The position numbers and the translations under genes are program-made. The notes beneath the pieces were generated by a model that worked only from the letters and a program-made list of their open reading frames with translations, was not told the DNA's origin and searched no databases. From Myxococcota bacterium (GTDB taxonomy: Bacteria > Myxococcota_A > UBA9160 > UBA6930): a stretch of 64,000 nucleotides of DNA. Shown here one piece after another: positions 1,778 through 18,961 of this stretch (its first letter is position 1; each line of letters opens with the position of its first letter). The DNA is taken from the NCBI GenBank assembly GCA_028277885.1, contig JANQFK010000023.1:62001-126000 (forward strand), written 5' to 3'.

Positions 1778-3846
1778 GACGACTTCGATCGATGCTGGCG
1801 CTCGGCGTGGCGCTGGTGCTGGCCGGCGCCGCAAGGGCCGAGGGCGACGACCGCTGGGCCGGCTACCTCGACTACGCCTACGTGTACTCCTCCGCCGAGC
1901 CCGAGGCCCTGCGCGTGCGCCTGGAGGGCTACGGGCGCGAGGCCGGGATCCAGCTCGAGCGCTACATCACCGAGGAGTTCGAGGCCCGGCCGGCCTCGGA
2001 CGGGCCCATCGACGAGGCGCGCGCCCGGCGCAAGGCCGTCGCGTACCTGCTCGACTACCTGGCCCGGGCGGAGCCCGAGTCCCTGGAGCGCAGCGTGGAC
2101 GCGATCCGCGAGCTGCGGGACCGGCTCGGCCGGCACGAGAACCGCTACTGGTACCACTACATCCTCGCCCACCGCGCCCTCGAGAAGGGACGCCACCACG
2201 ACTTCGTGGGCGAGCTCCTCGAGCTGTGGCTGGCCGTGGTGGTGCCGCTGGAGTCGCCCTACGAGACGCTCCAGACCCTGTCGCTCAGCGAGGCGCCCAA
2301 CTCGGGCTTCGCCTCGGCGCTCCCGTTCATCTACGAGAACGTGTCGCGAATGGTCCTGCTGCGCAGCCAGCAGATGGGGATGACCCGCGGCCTCGACCCC
2401 CTCGGCGCCATCGTGCGGCTCCTCTACGACGGCCGCGTGGGTGCGCACCCCGAGGTGATCCCGCTGGCGGCGTCGTCGCGCGACTACCTCGAGCGGATCG
2501 TGCAGCGGCTCGACGGGGCCGAGTCCGACGCCGGGAGCCTCACCTTCACCCTGACCCTGTTCGAGGCCAGCAAGTACCACGACGAGGCCCGGGCGCTGCT
2601 CGCCACCGAGGGGCTGAGCGAGAACACCCTCGAGGCGATCCGCGTCGCCACCGGCGCCTACCAGGCGGCCCTCGACCGCGCCGACACCGAGCAGGGGCGC
2701 TGCGCGGTCTACACCCGCGTGCTGCGGCAGATCGGCGAGGTGTACGCGGCCAAGCAGCGCCTCGGCGTGGACCCCGAGGTGGAGACCCCCTTCAGTCTCG
2801 AGGAGGCGATCGAGGTGTACGCCACGCTGCACCGTGCCCGCGGTGGCTGGGCGTCCCTCGGCTACGCCAAGACCGGGCGCCAGTCCTACGTGGACGCCAT
2901 GCACGGGCTGTGGGAGGAGATCCAGGAGGCGCACCTCAACGTCGCCGACTACTACCTGACCCGCAGCACCGAGCAGCCCCACCGCGCCGACGAGCACGCC
3001 CGCAACGCCGCCCGGCTGTTCAGCCGCTACCTCGGCTTCTTCCTCGAGTACGCGACCGAGGACGGCAAGGGCGGCGTCCCCGAGTCGGCCTACTTCGCGG
3101 CCCACGAGGCCGCGCGGGGGACCGGCGACGCCTTCCTGCTCTACGCGATCCATCCCGCGCCCGAGGAGATCGACCTCGCCATCCGCCGCTACCACGGGGC
3201 GATCCGCCTGTTCCCCTTCGACCGGCGGGTGTGGTCCTCGCTCACCGCCGCGCTCGAGCGCCAGGGACGCGAGAGCCGCTACATGGGGCTGGTGCAGCCC
3301 GCCGCCGAGGCGGTGTCGCGCTCCCGGGCCCTGGATCGCTGGATCGAGAACCGGGAGCCCGAGGCCGAGCGCGTCGCCACCCTGCGCCGCGCCTTCTCCG
3401 AGAGCCTGGCCCTCGTCTACCTCGGCTTCGCCGAGGAGACGGGCGTGGAGGAGCTCGAGGCGAGCGTGGTGGCGCTGCGCAGCGAGCGCGACGGGCTGGC
3501 CACGCGGCTCGCCGACCTGAGGCACCGCATCGGGGGGAGCCGCGGCGCCGCCGTGCCCGCCTCCCTGGACCCCGACGCACCGGCACCGGCCATGAACGGA
3601 GCCGGCCCGCTGGACGCCGCCGAGCTCGCCGGCCTGCATCGCGAGCTGGAGGAGACCAGCGCCCACCTCGACCGGGTCGAGAAGCAGATCGAGGCCCGCA
3701 CCCGGGCGCTGCCCCTCTACAAGGCGACCCTGCGCACCGACGGGCTGGCCGCCGAGCTGCGCGCCCGGCGCGACCACCCGGTCCACACCCTGCTGCGACG
3801 CATGTTCTACGAGGATCGCAGCGAGCCCCAGGGAGAGGAGCGATGA
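1774..3846 (+). CDS. Large exported helical-repeat protein, unknown function
   Basis: 690 aa from the ATG at 1774, which overlaps the previous TGA. The ORF-track start at 1597 would run deep into the preceding gene and is rejected. MRRLRSMLALGVALVLAGAARA is a clear Sec signal peptide. The mature protein is almost entirely alpha-helical, with alternating Tyr/Leu/Ala packing like TPR or related solenoid repeats (for example around NVADYYLTRSTEQP and AIRRYHGAIRLFPFDRR). The C-terminal ~150 residues are a heptad-rich coiled coil (ELEASVVALRSERDGL; LHRELEETSAHLDRVEKQIEA). I do not recognise a family. Its place between a TonB-like protein and a lipoprotein suggests a periplasmic scaffold of the same machine. 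Confidence 0.7.
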   Translation: MRRLRSMLALGVALVLAGAARAEGDDRWAGYLDYAYVYSSAEPEALRVRLEGYGREAGIQLERYITEEFEARPASDGPIDEARARRKAVAYLLDYLARAEPESLERSVDAIRELRDRLGRHENRYWYHYILAHRALEKGRHHDFVGELLELWLAVVVPLESPYETLQTLSLSEAPNSGFASALPFIYENVSRMVLLRSQQMGMTRGLDPLGAIVRLLYDGRVGAHPEVIPLAASSRDYLERIVQRLDGAESDAGSLTFTLTLFEASKYHDEARALLATEGLSENTLEAIRVATGAYQAALDRADTEQGRCAVYTRVLRQIGEVYAAKQRLGVDPEVETPFSLEEAIEVYATLHRARGGWASLGYAKTGRQSYVDAMHGLWEEIQEAHLNVADYYLTRSTEQPHRADEHARNAARLFSRYLGFFLEYATEDGKGGVPESAYFAAHEAARGTGDAFLLYAIHPAPEEIDLAIRRYHGAIRLFPFDRRVWSSLTAALERQGRESRYMGLVQPAAEAVSRSRALDRWIENREPEAERVATLRRAFSESLALVYLGFAEETGVEELEASVVALRSERDGLATRLADLRHRIGGSRGAAVPASLDPDAPAPAMNGAGPLDAAELAGLHRELEETSAHLDRVEKQIEARTRALPLYKATLRTDGLAAELRARRDHPVHTLLRRMFYEDRSEPQGEER

Positions 3847-5881: not shown

Positions 5882-7108
5882 TCAGCCGAGGCTCACCGGC
5901 AGGCTCGAGTAGCCCCGCAGCACGAAGCCCGGGCGCCGCGGCGGGGCGTCGCCGGCCAGGGCCATCTCCGGGAAGCGCCGCGCCAGGGCGCCGATGGCGA
6001 TCTCGCCCTCGAGCCGGGCCAGCCCGGCGCCCAGGCAGAAGTGTGCGCCGTGGCCGAAGGAGAGGTGGCGGTTGTCGCGCCGGTCGAGCACCAGCCGGTC
6101 CGGGTCGGGGAACTGCCCGGCGTCGCGGTTCGCCGAGCCCAGCAGGGTGTTGACCTCGTCTCCCTTCGGGATCCGGGTGCCGTGGATCTCGACGTCCTCG
6201 AGGGGGACCCGCGAGGTCACCTGCACGGGGCTGTCGAAGCGCAGCAGCTCGTCCACCGCGGTGGGCAGCAGGGCGGGCTCCCGGCCGAGGCGCTCGAAGG
6301 CCGCGCGGTCCCGCAGCAGGGCCGCCATGCCGTTGCCGATCAGGTTGGTGGTGGTCTCGTGGCCCGCGCCCAGGATCAGCGCGCAGGTGCCCAGCACCTC
6401 CCAGTCGTCGAGGGCGTCGTCGGCCTCCTGGGCCGCCACCAGCGCGCTGACGAGGTCCTCCTGGGGCTCCTTGCGGCGTGCCTCGATGACGCCCTTCAGG
6501 TACTGGACCAGCTCCAGGAAGCTCGGCACCGCCACCGCCAGGTGCTCGTCGCGGAGCGTGCCGTCGAGCAGCATCGCGGCGTGGTCGGACCACACCTTCA
6601 GGCGCTCCCGGTCCTCCACGGCGACGCCCAGCAGCTCGGCGATCACGATGATGGGGAGCGGAACCGCGAGGTCGCGCACCACGTCGAAGCCGCCCTCACC
6701 GGCGTGGGCGTCGAGGATCTCGTCCACCAGCGCCTCGATCCGCGGGCGCAGGTGCTGCACGCGTCGCGGGGTGAAGGCCTTGTTGACCAGTCCGCGCAGC
6801 CGGGTGTGCTCCGGCGGGTCGCGGAAGAGCATGATGCCCTCGTAGGCGCGCACCAGCGGATGGTCGCCGCCTCCCTGCTCCCGAAGCGCCGAGAACATCT
6901 CGAGCAGGTTCTTGCGCGCCGAGAAGCGCGGGTCCCGCAGCACGTCGATGCAGTCCTGCCAGCGGGGCAGGATCCAGATCGGGACCTCGACCCCGTCGAG
7001 GCGCTCGAACAGCTTGAAGTGGACCGGGCCGGCCTCGCGCATGCGCGCGTACACGGGGTAGGGGTCGTGCTGGAAGTCGGGATCGCTCGGCTCGTAGTAC
7101 ACGTCCAA
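5882..7108 (-). CDS. Cytochrome P450
   Basis: 408 aa from a TTG at 7108, which has AGGAG 7 bases upstream; the track's longer start adds an Arg-rich segment unlike P450s. Soluble class I bacterial P450. It shows the I-helix LGAGHETTTNLIGNG, the ExxR motif in DELLRFDSP, and the heme-binding loop FGHGAHFCLGAGLARLE with the thiolate Cys near residue 358. It ends in the usual beta strands. Likely a CYP107/CYP125-like hydroxylase by general look, but the substrate cannot be read from sequence. No ferredoxin or ferredoxin reductase is adjacent, so electron donors must be encoded elsewhere. Confidence 0.92.
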   Translation of the reverse strand: MDVYYEPSDPDFQHDPYPVYARMREAGPVHFKLFERLDGVEVPIWILPRWQDCIDVLRDPRFSARKNLLEMFSALREQGGGDHPLVRAYEGIMLFRDPPEHTRLRGLVNKAFTPRRVQHLRPRIEALVDEILDAHAGEGGFDVVRDLAVPLPIIVIAELLGVAVEDRERLKVWSDHAAMLLDGTLRDEHLAVAVPSFLELVQYLKGVIEARRKEPQEDLVSALVAAQEADDALDDWEVLGTCALILGAGHETTTNLIGNGMAALLRDRAAFERLGREPALLPTAVDELLRFDSPVQVTSRVPLEDVEIHGTRIPKGDEVNTLLGSANRDAGQFPDPDRLVLDRRDNRHLSFGHGAHFCLGAGLARLEGEIAIGALARRFPEMALAGDAPPRRPGFVLRGYSSLPVSLG

Positions 7109-7260: not shown

Positions 7261-9483
7261 TCAGGAGAGCCAGTCGCGCACCTTTCCGAGCAGCCGCCGG
7301 GGGCCCCGGAAGAAGCGGCGGCTGCCGAGGCGGAGCTCCCGCAGCAGGTCCGGGCTCGTCAGCTGCGACCGGAGCGCCAGGAAGGGCCAGCTCGCCCCCG
7401 CCGCCTGCCGAGCCGGCAGGGAGCGGATCTCCTGGGGCACGTACTTCCCCGCCTGGAGGTAGCCGCTCAGTATCAGCGCCTGGGCCTCGGTCTCGGAGAA
7501 GGCGTCGAGGTCCGTCCGGATCGCGGCCAGGGCGGCCTGCACGGGCTCGGGGACCCCGTAGGGGGTGGACTTCGGAGCGGCGGTGGGCGTGGAGGCAGCG
7601 CCCGGCTGCTTCCAGTCCACGGTCCCGGCGTCGAGGTCGCGCTTCAGGTGGAGGAAGCTCAGCTCCCGAAGCCGGGAGGAGCGCTGGCGTGCGCTGAGCT
7701 CCCGGTACAGGATCGAGCGGATCGTCGACTGCAGGATGCTGTTCGAGCGCAGCGAGACCCCCAGGGCCGCCCACTTGGGGTCGTCCTGGCTGTCCATCTG
7801 GCCGCTCGCGTCGCTCACGATCATCGCGTTGCAGTCCTGCTCGAGCAGGGTCAGGACGCCCTGGTTGTCCCGCACGCCGCCGTCCACCAGCCGCACGGTC
7901 TTGCCCGGATACAGGCCCTTCAGGACCAGCGGACGGAAGATCCCGGGCACGCAGGCGGAGGCCGCCACCGCGCCGCCCAGGGAGGCGGACGAGTGGGGAG
8001 CCGGCGCCTCGTCGTAGTACATGCGGCGCAGCCGCTCGTTGCGGTCGATGGACTCGTCGATGTGGGCCGTCGGCTCTCCCATGAAGGTCGAGGTGTACTG
8101 CCAGGTGTGTCCCGTGTTGAGCGTCGTGGCGTTGAGCACGAGCACCGGGACCTTTCCGTGGCGTCGCCAGTTGTCCCGTCGCGGGTGGAAGGCCCCGCCG
8201 TGGCCGTGGGGCGAGACGCGCAGATCGCGCAGCGGGATCGGGCCCTCGCGCCCCAGCACGGGTCCGTAGATGCGCTCCTCGTAGAGCTCCGCGATGCGCA
8301 CGCTGCGGGTGTAGCCGGGCTTCGCCAGCAGCTTCACCACGGCGGTCGGGCTCTTGATCACGCTGTTCCGGACGTCGCTCGCGACGGCGGCGACGAAGTC
8401 GCGCGCCACCTCCCGGACGATCTCCACGTAGTCGATCTTGCCGTCGGGGCGGCGCTCGAGCTCCCGCCGCAGCACCAGGTAGTAGTGCGCGCCGAGGATG
8501 GAGCCCCCCGACACGCAGGACAGGACCTCGACGTGACGCAGCAGGTCGAGCTCCGCGAGCTTCGCCAGCACGCCGATGTGGAACAGGGAGGCCCGGAAGC
8601 CTCCACCGGAGAGGGCCAGGCCGAGCTTTCCCGCGAAGGCCGTGGTGAGGGCCTCGGGGTCGCCGCCGATGAGCTTCTGGAGGGCGTCCTTGGCACGGGC
8701 GTCGGCCTCCGCCCCGCGGATCCTCAGGATCGAGGCCAGCTGGCGGGCGGTGGTCTCCACCATCCACTCCTCGGGGTCGCAGCGCGCGGCCTCGGCGAGC
8801 CAGCTTCCGGCCCTGGCGTAGTCGCCCAGCCCCAGGTGGGCCTCGGCCAGGGTCGCGGTCGACCAGTAATCCTTCGCGGCCGGGTCCTGGAGCTTCTGCT
8901 CGAGGTGGTCGCGGATCCTCTCCCGGATGCGCTGCGCCTTCTCGCGGTGCCCCGCGGCGTCGCCGGGCCCGGAGTCGCCCTCCTCGGTCTCGGCGAGCAG
9001 GTCGTGGACGAAGGCGGCGTTGATCCCGGTGTAGCCGTCGTCGACCTCGGGGCCCTGCTGCCAGGCGCGCCGGTAGAAGTCGAGCGACTGCTCGAGATGG
9101 CGCTCGCGGCCGTCGATCTCCCACAGGCGCTTGTGGATCGCGCCGGCGATCCCCAGGGTCTCGGGATCGCTCGTGGTGGTGAGGGCGTCACCCGGGTCGT
9201 CGAGGATGCAGATCGCCTCCCGCAGGCCCTCCTCGCTGATCACCTCGGGGTTCTTGTAGGTGCACAGCGCGTGCTGCTGCCGGAGCCGGGTCGCCAGGGC
9301 CGGGTCGTCGCCGGCGCCGAGGCGCTCCCGGGCCAGCGCGAAGATCCTCTGCGCGTAGGGGAACGCGCGGGCGCGCTTGAGCTCGTCGCCGAGCCTCGCG
9401 AGATCGGCGGGGCTCGCCGGGGTCTCCCCTCCCTCGAGCTGGGCGATGGCGCGGTCGACCGGAGAGCGATGGTCCTGCGGCAT
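7261..9483 (-). CDS. TRAFs-binding/TPR domain fused to patatin-like phospholipase
   Basis: 740 aa from ATG 9483 (GGGAGG upstream; the track start at 9582 would run through a regulatory palindrome). Residues 1-250 are helical and resemble the DUF4071/MAP3K-TRAFs-binding domain (DDGYTGINAAFVHDLL, then TPR-like helices). Residues 285-600 are a patatin-like lipase: oxyanion loop SGGGFRASLFHIG (about 292-304), nucleophile elbow CVSGGS (Ser about 325; the first Gly of GxSxG is Cys), and catalytic Asp in LVDGGVRDNQG. Patatins hydrolyse acyl chains from phospholipids. No signal peptide is visible, so it is probably cytoplasmic or peripheral. Such TPR-patatin fusions occur in signalling or conflict contexts. 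A CRP-type site lies 85-100 bases upstream. Confidence 0.85.
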   Translation of the reverse strand: MPQDHRSPVDRAIAQLEGGETPASPADLARLGDELKRARAFPYAQRIFALARERLGAGDDPALATRLRQQHALCTYKNPEVISEEGLREAICILDDPGDALTTTSDPETLGIAGAIHKRLWEIDGRERHLEQSLDFYRRAWQQGPEVDDGYTGINAAFVHDLLAETEEGDSGPGDAAGHREKAQRIRERIRDHLEQKLQDPAAKDYWSTATLAEAHLGLGDYARAGSWLAEAARCDPEEWMVETTARQLASILRIRGAEADARAKDALQKLIGGDPEALTTAFAGKLGLALSGGGFRASLFHIGVLAKLAELDLLRHVEVLSCVSGGSILGAHYYLVLRRELERRPDGKIDYVEIVREVARDFVAAVASDVRNSVIKSPTAVVKLLAKPGYTRSVRIAELYEERIYGPVLGREGPIPLRDLRVSPHGHGGAFHPRRDNWRRHGKVPVLVLNATTLNTGHTWQYTSTFMGEPTAHIDESIDRNERLRRMYYDEAPAPHSSASLGGAVAASACVPGIFRPLVLKGLYPGKTVRLVDGGVRDNQGVLTLLEQDCNAMIVSDASGQMDSQDDPKWAALGVSLRSNSILQSTIRSILYRELSARQRSSRLRELSFLHLKRDLDAGTVDWKQPGAASTPTAAPKSTPYGVPEPVQAALAAIRTDLDAFSETEAQALILSGYLQAGKYVPQEIRSLPARQAAGASWPFLALRSQLTSPDLLRELRLGSRRFFRGPRRLLGKVRDWLS

Positions 9484-9539
9484 GGCTCGAACCTCCCGCC
9501 TGGCTCCCGGGAGCGGGACGTCCCGGAAGCGCCAGCCCG

Positions 9540-9545
9540 ATTCTA
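9540..9545 (-). promoter_or_regulatory. Candidate -10 (TAGAAT) of the patatin gene
   Basis: TAGAAT on the minus strand (5 of 6 to the sigma-70 -10), about 57 bases before the ATG at 9483. It places a start site near 9533, and the CRP-like palindrome is then centred about 42 bases upstream of it. Confidence 0.4.
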
Positions 9546-9567: not shown

Positions 9568-9583
9568 TGTGAAGCAGTTCACA
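9568..9583. promoter_or_regulatory. CRP/FNR-family operator, TGTGA-N6-TCACA
   Basis: TGTGAAGCAGTTCACA is a perfect 16-bp match to the classical CRP half-sites TGTGA and TCACA with a 6-base spacer. It stands out as AT-richer DNA in a GC-rich intergenic region. It lies between the patatin gene (minus) and a possible small plus-strand gene. Relative to the candidate -10 its centre sits near -42, the class II activator position. The regulator itself is not in the window. Confidence 0.6.
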
Positions 9584-9653: not shown

Positions 9654-9857
9654 ATGCCCTGCGTCCACCCCGCTCTGGCCTTCGCGCTCACCATGCGCGC
9701 CCTCGCGAGCCTGGCGACCCTCTCGATCGAGCCGAGGCTGTTCCACACCCTCATGGAGGACGCGTCCCTGCGCGAGCGCGTGATCGCCCAGCCCGAGAGC
9801 CTCGAGCGCTTCGAGAGGGCCGGGAGGCGATCGTGCCGCCGCTCCCCATGCCGATGA
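9654..9857 (+). CDS. Possible small hypothetical protein, perhaps frameshifted
   Basis: 67 aa (MPCVHPALAFALTMRAL...) with a good Shine-Dalgarno, GGAGGA 7 bases before the ATG, in an otherwise empty gap. The first ~55 residues look protein-like (LFHTLMEDASLRERVIAQPESLERFERAGR); the last 12 are Arg/Ser/Cys-rich and unlike a natural C-terminus. In the next frame, sequence right after this point reads EAIVPPLPMPMTGALIGLVGPFWYDAI up to a stop at 10006, with a plausible membrane helix. A one-base shift would join them into about 117 aa. So it may be a broken gene, a sequencing error or chance. Confidence 0.3.
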   Translation: MPCVHPALAFALTMRALASLATLSIEPRLFHTLMEDASLRERVIAQPESLERFERAGRRSCRRSPCR

Positions 9858-10002
9858 CCGGTGCGCTCATCGGCCTGGTCGGCCCGTTCTGGTACGACGC
9901 GATCCTGTGCCCGGGCCCCCCGCGGAAGGCGCTCCGCGACGGCGGCGATGCCGAGGCGGAGCGCGCGACGGCCTGGGGGCCGACCCGGGACGGCTCGCCC
10001 GG

Positions 10003-11010
10003 CTAGCGCGGATCCGGCGCGACGCGGATCATGCGCTTGCCGCGGTTCTCTCCCGCCAGCAGGCCGATCAGGCCCCGCGGTGCGTTCTCGAGGCCCTCGA
10101 TCACGTCCTCCACCACCACCAGGCGGCCGTCGGCCGCCCAGGCGGCGAGGTCGCGCTCGGCCTCGGCGTCGCGATCCGCGAAGTCGGAGACGATGAAGCC
10201 CTCCAGGCGCAGCCGCTTGATGACGATCAGCCCCGGGACGCCCACGGGGCCGGTCAGCGGTCCGCCGTCGTACATCGAGACGGCGCCGCAGCAGGAGATG
10301 CGCCCGTGGTCGTTCATGGCGAACAGCGCGGCCTGGAGCACCGCGCCGCCGACGTTGTCGAAGTAGACGTCCACGCCCCTGGGGCAGTGCTCGGCGATCG
10401 CGGCGGAGACGTCCTCGCCCTTGTAATCGATGCAGGCGTCGAAGCCGAGGGTGTCCACCACCCAGCCGCACTTCTCCGGGCCGCCGGCCACGCCCACCAC
10501 CCGGGCGCCCTTGAGCTTGCCGATCTGGCCCACCAGGGAGCCCACGGACCCCGCCGCCGCCGACACCAGCAGGGTCTCGCCGGCCTCGATGCCCGAGACG
10601 TCGAGCAGGCCGTGGTAGGCCGTCTTGCCCGCCACGCCGAGCACCGAGATCAGGTGGGTGAGCGGGCGGTGGTCCGGCGCGCGTCCCACGGCCCGCGCGT
10701 CCAGGGCGGCGTACTCCTGCCAGCCCGACTCCGCGAACACCAGGTCGCCGGGCGAGTAGTCCGGGGCCCGGGACTCCACCACCTCGGACAGCGCGTAGCC
10801 GTGCATGACGTCGCCCTCCTCGACGGCCGACTTGTAGGTGGCGCCCTGCATCCAGGCCCGGTTCGCGGCGTCCTGGGAGAGCAGGATCGTGCGCAGGAGG
10901 AGCTGGCCATCCGAGGGCACCGGCATCGGGGCCTGGCGCAGCTCGAAGTGGGACTCCTCGAGCTTCCCCTTCGGACGCTCGCGGAGCAGGATCTGGGTGT
11001 TGTCGGCCAC
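10003..11010 (-). CDS. MDR-family NADP-dependent oxidoreductase (CurA/leukotriene-B4-reductase type)
   Basis: 335 aa, GTG start with GGGAGAG upstream. N-terminal catalytic half of the zinc-free medium-chain dehydrogenase/reductase type (GKLEESHFELRQAPMPVPSDGQLLLRTILLSQDAANRAWM). It is followed by the Rossmann NADPH-binding motif VSAAAGSVGSLVGQIGKLKGARVVGVAGG at about 155-183, and FDNVGGAVL, typical of prostaglandin/leukotriene reductases and CurA. These enzymes reduce the alkene of alpha,beta-unsaturated ketones or aldehydes with NADPH, often in detoxification. No zinc-ligand Cys set is present. It stands alone; one copy of the dispersed two-hairpin repeat lies between its start and the next gene's stop. 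Confidence 0.88.
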   Translation of the reverse strand: MADNTQILLRERPKGKLEESHFELRQAPMPVPSDGQLLLRTILLSQDAANRAWMQGATYKSAVEEGDVMHGYALSEVVESRAPDYSPGDLVFAESGWQEYAALDARAVGRAPDHRPLTHLISVLGVAGKTAYHGLLDVSGIEAGETLLVSAAAGSVGSLVGQIGKLKGARVVGVAGGPEKCGWVVDTLGFDACIDYKGEDVSAAIAEHCPRGVDVYFDNVGGAVLQAALFAMNDHGRISCCGAVSMYDGGPLTGPVGVPGLIVIKRLRLEGFIVSDFADRDAEAERDLAAWAADGRLVVVEDVIEGLENAPRGLIGLLAGENRGKRMIRVAPDPR

Positions 11011-18082: not shown

Positions 18083-18961
18083 GTGGGGGGCGGGCGGATC
18101 CTCGTCGAGGACGCCGACGGCGTCCGGCTCCTCACCCTGAACCGTCCCGAGCGGCGCAACGCCTTCGACCACCGCATGTGGCTGGAGCTGCGCGACGCAC
18201 TCCACGATGCGCGGCGGGACGACGCGGTCCGCGTGGTGGTGATGACCGGGGCCGGGTCCGCCTTCACCGCCGGCGCCGATCTCGGCGAGATGGCCGCGCC
18301 CCCCGCCGTGGAGGGCGCCGGCGAGCACGGCTTCGGGAGCTGCGTCGAGGCCTTCATCGACTTCGACAAGCCGCTGGTGGCGGCGGTGAACGGCGTGGGG
18401 GTCGGGGCCGGGCTCACCCTGCTGCTCTACTTCGACTACGTCTACATCGTGCGCGGCGCCCGGCTGCGCGCCCCCTTCGTGACCCTGGGCGTGGCCCCCG
18501 AGGCCGGCAGCAGCTACCTGCTCCCCGCCACCCTGGGCCACCGCGCCGCCCTGCAGCTGCTCTACGAGTCGGACTTCGTTCCGGCGGAGCGCGCCGTCGA
18601 ACTCGGCATCGCCGACGAGCTGTGCGAGCCCGACGCACTGCTCCCGCGCGCCCGGGAGCGCGCGCGCTGGCTGGCGCGCAAGCCGCTCGGCTCCCTGCGC
18701 GCCACCAAGCGCCTGCTGCTGGCGACCCGCAACGACCGCATCCGCGCCGCCCGCGCCCGGGAGGACGCGGCCTTCGAGCGGCGCGTGGGCTCGCCCGAGA
18801 ACGTCGAGGCCATCCGGGCCTTCTTCGAGAAGCGCGACGCCGACTTCTCGCGCGTGCCGAGCGCCGACCGCGAGCCGGCCGGCTCCGACTCGGCCCAGGG
18901 GGCCGACCCAGGATGGGTCGGCTTCCGCCGCAAGGCGAGCCCGAAGGGCCCGCTCGGCTAG
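18083..18961 (+). CDS. Enoyl-CoA hydratase/isomerase with repeat-derived C-terminus
   Basis: 292 aa, GTG start 2 bases after the ligase stop. Crotonase fold: NRPERRNAFDHRMWLEL, oxyanion loop AGSAFTAGADLGEM (about 57-70), FDKPLVAAVNGVGVGAGL, VTLGVAPEAGSSYLLPATLGH, ending in the usual helices (RKPLGSLRATKRLL). The position usually holding catalytic Glu in hydratases reads Ala-Gly-Ala-Asp-Leu then PEAGSS, which keeps the second acidic residue. It adds water to, or isomerises, 2-enoyl-CoA. The last ~20 residues (ADPGWVGFRRKASPKGPLG) are encoded by copy C of the dispersed two-hairpin repeat, so the normal end was probably near residue 270 and the repeat supplies tail and stop. Its stop overlaps the convergent exporter stop. 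Confidence 0.88.
   Translation: MGGGRILVEDADGVRLLTLNRPERRNAFDHRMWLELRDALHDARRDDAVRVVVMTGAGSAFTAGADLGEMAAPPAVEGAGEHGFGSCVEAFIDFDKPLVAAVNGVGVGAGLTLLLYFDYVYIVRGARLRAPFVTLGVAPEAGSSYLLPATLGHRAALQLLYESDFVPAERAVELGIADELCEPDALLPRARERARWLARKPLGSLRATKRLLLATRNDRIRAARAREDAAFERRVGSPENVEAIRAFFEKRDADFSRVPSADREPAGSDSAQGADPGWVGFRRKASPKGPLG
18902..18953 (+). repeat. Dispersed two-hairpin repeat, copy C (inside a coding 3' end)
   Basis: Hairpin 1: GCCGACCC-aggat-GGGTCGGC (18902-18922), perfect 8-bp arms. Spacer ttccgccgcaag. Hairpin 2: GCGAGCCC-gaa-GGGCCCGC (18935-18953), one arm mismatch. Here the element is translated as the C-terminus of the enoyl-CoA hydratase, and the stop codon lies just after it. Confidence 0.85.

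Follow-up and report, generated by a model that had tools for sequence, protein, structure and literature searches.

The closest described systems to the one analysed here involve two CRP-family regulators, Corynebacterium glutamicum GlxR and M. tuberculosis CRP (Rv3676). Among solved proteins, these are the nearest to the candidate regulator presented below, with which they have in common a RE(S/T)xNK recognition helix. The GlxR operator, TGTGANNTANNTCACA (PMC4254451), is equal in its outer arms and spacing to the sites described in this study, whereas in the latter positions 6 and 11 are almost always A and T, respectively, and the centre, which lacks TA, usually reads [C/G]NN[C/G]. The phylogenetic setting and the targets of GlxR and Rv3676 also differ from those of the regulon found here. 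The E. coli CRP prefers the inner bases TGTGAT/ATCACA, which again differ from the TGTGAA/TTCACA of our sites. Class II promoters of CRP have the site over the −35 region, with its centre at about −41.5 (PMC5957442); those of E. coli resemble the promoters considered here in the TGTGA-N6-TCACA outer arms and in the centre at −41.5/−42.5, although the present regulon shows no class I peak. As for the control of effector-like genes, the nearest precedents found are a CRISPR-Cas operon controlled by CRP-cAMP (PMC4499141) and CRP-like genes that adjoin conflict systems (PMC7159879). In these systems, as here, a cyclic-nucleotide-type regulator is tied to defence or conflict genes; however, in our case several unrelated effector-like genes at scattered loci lie under one operator, together with a cyclase gene and a crp gene.

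In the window (the whole 64-kb stretch of DNA that was analysed), the sequence TGTGAAGCAGTTCACA at 9568–9583, centred at 9575.5, is the sole exact match to TGTGA-N6-TCACA. A previous sequence-only reading had reported it as single within the intergenic region, and its uniqueness extends to the entire window. The same reading described 16 bases of exact symmetry. The TGTGA-N6-TCACA pattern is indeed exact, but only the arms TGTGAA and TTCACA are self-complementary, which amounts to 12 of the 16 bases, and the middle GCAG is not symmetric. FNR- and LexA-type sites follow the patterns TTGAT-N4-ATCAA and GAAC-N4-GTTC, respectively; the former and the spacing of the latter are absent, and a site of either type was rejected. 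On the minus strand, the putative −10 hexamer TAGAAT (9540–9545) begins at index 30, counted from the site centre. The transcription start deduced from its position would be at 9533, giving a leader of ∼50 nt, and with +1 placed there the site centre falls at −42.5, in agreement with the class II location at about −42 that had been proposed.

The gene behind this promoter (7261–9483, minus strand, 740 amino acids) encodes a TPR-S and patatin-like phospholipase, as assigned by Pfam and the coding score. The TPR-S domain (PF20308, 68.2 bits against a cut-off of 27.6) covers residues 58–159 (9007–9312) and the patatin domain (PF01734, 51.3 against 27.7 bits) residues 289–544 (7852–8619), the latter carrying the SGGGFRAS, VSGGS and DGG motifs; the TPR-patatin identity given earlier is thus borne out for both parts. 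No match of this protein to the PADLOC phospholipase effector models (CBASS-type) was obtained. The longest open reading frame begins at a GTG at 9582, overlapping the operator, but the ATG at 9483 appears to be the best placed start, being preferred on the basis of the coding score and of a ribosome site (GGGAGGT, 9491–9497, minus strand) located 7 nt before it. A cytochrome P450 gene identified by Pfam (5882–7108, minus strand), with a likely TTG start at 7108 preceded by AGGAG, is found 152 bp downstream of the patatin gene. We found no terminator-like site between the two genes, and their co-transcription is possible. On the other side of the operator, two short frames with a weak coding score (9654–10007, plus strand), the first without a Pfam match, are perhaps the remains of a gene. 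We also observed a repeat of ∼45 bp made of two hairpin-like halves, GCCGACCCAGGATGGGTCGGCTTCCGCCGCRARGCGAGCCCGRAGGGC, on the plus strand at 18908 and 48022 of the window and at 3592 of another fetched locus (L036), where it directly follows the stop codon of a P450 gene.

Within the window alone, one exact match is weak evidence, and it is the genome-wide count that decides against chance. The genome was available as a draft assembly of 5,192,778 bases with ∼90% completeness; expected counts were derived from nucleotide frequencies in the fetched loci and complemented by a reversed-motif control, and genes were called by ourselves based on codon usage. Exact TGTGA-N6-TCACA occurs 32 times in these 5.19 Mb, for 0.55 expected and none in the reversed control (Poisson P ∼1e-44). 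The tighter form TGTGAA-N4-TTCACA, in which positions 6 and 11 are A and T, accounts for 26 of the 32 (0.01 expected, reversed control 0), the window site among them, and 41 sites are reached when up to one mismatch is allowed (control 1). All sites found, exact or with one mismatch, are located outside the called genes, and many of them lie 35–145 bp before a start codon. Beyond the 16 bp, the flanks have nothing in common except a mild preference for G/C, which points to an operator rather than to a repeat. The site at 9568–9583 is therefore real, and the sequence data define a predicted regulon of ∼40 promoters to which it belongs, with the consensus TGTGAA-[C/G]NN[C/G]-TTCACA. Each of 79 other genomes searched contains 9 or fewer sites of the tighter exact form against 26 here, and the motif string did not occur in the literature searched. 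Two other observations concern the distribution of the sites. Six of them (exact or with one mismatch) are grouped within 55 kb of one contig (C30, 136052–190489), three being near two-component or PAS/LuxR-type genes. In a relative (G045), seven exact sites are spread over seven contigs, six of them as the identical self-complementary TGTGAAGTACTTCACA, and these may represent a repeated element there rather than separate promoters.

In 41 site–gene pairs, −10-like hexamers were then scored at each position relative to the site centre, transcription starts being inferred from these hexamers. A peak was obtained at 29–30 nt, where xAxxxT was present in 10 and 8 pairs, other positions having about one; the three-position mean score was 2.94, whereas 2000 shuffles gave 1.73 (sd 0.14) and never exceeded 2.33. 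When both flanks were considered without gene calls, 15 and 11 of the 82 flanks had such a hexamer at these two distances against 1.6 per position (26 versus 3.2 expected). TAGAAT in the window and TATGAT beside the site at 7686 of contig C82 are the two best-scoring hexamers at this spacing, and a recognizable −10 at 29–30 nt is missing in about half of the pairs. When ∼50 sites from other members of the order were treated likewise, the same peak was present (24 and 17 of 102 flanks against 2.2 per position; 41 versus 4.4 expected), and this is a replication on different DNA. A spacing of 29–30 nt puts the site centre at −41.5/−42.5, the class II position. The scan for the motif near −41.5 and −61.5 that had been recommended thus yielded a peak at the first location, recurring genome-wide and in relatives, and no comparable −10 peak at the class I spacing (−61.5) across this regulon.

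The search for CRP/FNR homologues that had also been suggested gave 10 cNMP-binding matches in the genome, three of which have a CRP-type recognition helix: SRESINKHL (RESINK, contig C59), TRESVNKQL (RESVNK, C51) and TREAVGRHL (REAVGR, C66). The C59 protein (1500–2210 of its contig, minus strand), whose gene has an exact site upstream, contains the cNMP_binding (PF00027, 79.7 bits) and HTH_Crp_2 (PF13545, 54 bits) domains. Among solved proteins its nearest relative is CRP of M. tuberculosis, followed by GlxR and then E. coli CAP. Like that of M. tuberculosis CRP, its helix has R and E, and a K takes the place of E. coli R185. The phosphate-binding segment of the C59 protein retains GEVSILDATPRSA, and the genome encodes eight class III cyclase domains; a response of this CRP to cAMP is inferred. 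Judging from these sequence features, the C59 CRP is the most likely regulator of the window site, but C51 or C66 could bind it instead; neither of these two paralogues has a close match upstream. Near the start of the C66 gene (102520–103077, minus strand; helix REAVGRHLKRF), we noted TGCGA-N6-TCGCA, and near that of its relative in G007 TGCGAACCCGTTCACA; these palindromes perhaps constitute a second, related operator.

Taken together, the data make it very probable that 9568–9583 is the operator of a CRP-family activator of the TPR-S/patatin gene, in class II position. A CRP dimer centred at −42.5 would occupy the region where a −35 element would otherwise stand and bring RNA polymerase to the TAGAAT at 9545–9540, leading to activation of the patatin gene; the protein acting there would most likely be the presumably cAMP-responsive C59 CRP, whose gene is itself preceded by a site. 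The CRP-type control initially suggested for this gene is thereby supported by the regulon, the class II geometry and the presence of CRP homologues. The sequences themselves show the regulon, its geometry and its tie to a CRP gene, whereas binding, activation, the cAMP ligand and the paralogue involved are predictions.

The site of the crp gene itself is placed like a repressor site. It is centred 22 bp before the crp ATG, in the region that separates crp from a divergent P450 gene. This distance is too short for crp to be activated in the class II manner, so the site may mediate negative autoregulation or serve the P450 gene, which has a TAGGAT at the right spacing. Since CRP proteins are capable of repressing, the window site might likewise repress the patatin gene, or serve chiefly as a roadblock or in an architectural role. 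We regard this as unlikely, as the common −10 spacing and the lack of a −35 match in the region fit class II activation. An operator for a regulator of another family, for instance of the TetR, GntR or MarR type, that merely resembles a CRP site is slightly less plausible again. In its favour, the inner positions TGTGAA/TTCACA are stricter than in the sites of E. coli CRP or GlxR, but −41.5/−42.5 is the class II activator position of CRP (PMC5957442) and would be unusual for such repressors, a cyclase gene is a conserved target, and the motif adjoins a CRP gene or operon in several genomes and co-occurs with a CRP homologue. The nearest relative of the C59 CRP (G033, 59% identity) has a one-mismatch site upstream of its gene, and an exact site precedes each of the P450–CRP operons of G023, G029 and G034. 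At least one site was found in 13 of the 18 genomes with a strong CRP homologue compared with 1 of the 13 where it is weak or missing, for which the P-value of 0.0007 is optimistic, the genomes being related. In the CRP tree, the C59 protein is resolved with that of G033 but little else, and the orthology of the CRPs of other relatives is uncertain. A chance match or a part of a dispersed repeat, with which a lone exact match in one window would be compatible, is practically discounted by the genome-wide excess, the limited likeness of the flanks, the non-genic placement and the −10 phasing. Finally, it is hardly credible that TTCACA is a plain sigma-70 −35 hexamer with incidental symmetry: it equals TTGACA at five of six positions, but it lies 22 nt from the −10 instead of the usual 16–18, the promoter scan of the region found no sigma-70 promoter, and the left arm is equally conserved across the genome.

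The class II operator proposed for the patatin gene recurs before genes of diverse functions. This genome, G034 and G038 each have a class III cyclase gene preceded by a site (61–62% identity between families), so the circuit may hold feedback. An FAD/NAD/2Fe-2S oxidoreductase gene is in such a position in G001, G005 and G008 (52–58% identity), and PAS/LuxR-type regulators, only weakly alike, are recurrent targets. Further targets in this genome include two-component kinases, sigma-54 activators, HDOD, GDPD, GST, glyoxalase, TauD and P450 proteins. A gene on contig C31 (2560–4530 of locus L061, minus strand) with a site 205 bp upstream encodes a membrane protein whose C-terminal domain is VgrG3-like. 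Among relatives, the closest homologue of the window gene in the patatin domain (G004) belongs to an apparent operon with a non-specific endonuclease, at the head of which an exact site is present beside a divergent KAP-like NTPase gene. In G001, sites were present upstream of a patatin gene (57 bp, two mismatches) and of an HsdM-like gene (60 bp, exact). Most of the remaining patatin homologues of relatives are not accompanied by a site: for those in G040, G009, G023 and contig C53 of G004, none was found within two mismatches in the fetched stretch.

Some of the putatively switched genes resemble those of bacterial immune effectors at the sequence level. Both TPR-S proteins of the genome that exceed the cut-off are behind sites, namely the window protein and a TPR-S/hydrolase (C10) whose operon also encodes a TIR-effector-like TPR protein; no description of TPR-S was found in our literature search. 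Two of the six patatins are behind sites, and the one on C23 matches PADLOC CBASS phospholipase effectors at 5e-48. A SEFIR/TIR protein among the targets (C64) gave a bSEFIR match at 2.7e-40, and targets on C40 gave weaker TIR-like matches. As a class, TIR_2 proteins are not strongly represented (one of five). When TPR-S, patatin and TIR_2 genes are pooled, 4 of 12 are behind sites against ∼0.15–0.2 expected (P ∼1e-5 to 6e-5), an enrichment that is suggestive only, because the families were picked after the targets had been seen. We tentatively propose, as a possibility that we hold less likely than its opposite, that in this lineage one cyclic-nucleotide-responsive CRP governs the expression of scattered immune or self-killing effectors (the TPR-S patatin, the TPR-S hydrolase operon, the CBASS-type phospholipase and the bSEFIR-like and TIR-like proteins), with cAMP as a cell-wide signal for arming defence and with a cyclase and crp in the same loop. 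If the effector link holds, this would be a testable case of costly immune-type effectors placed under second-messenger control.

The type of site and the class of promoter are already known. As far as we have searched, the tighter consensus, the existence of the regulon in this order, its size in one genome and its effector content are new. In a GC-rich bacterial order, a guess about one promoter has thus become a predicted regulon of ∼40 promoters that share a tight consensus and a fixed geometry and have a candidate regulator and a cyclase likely to provide feedback.
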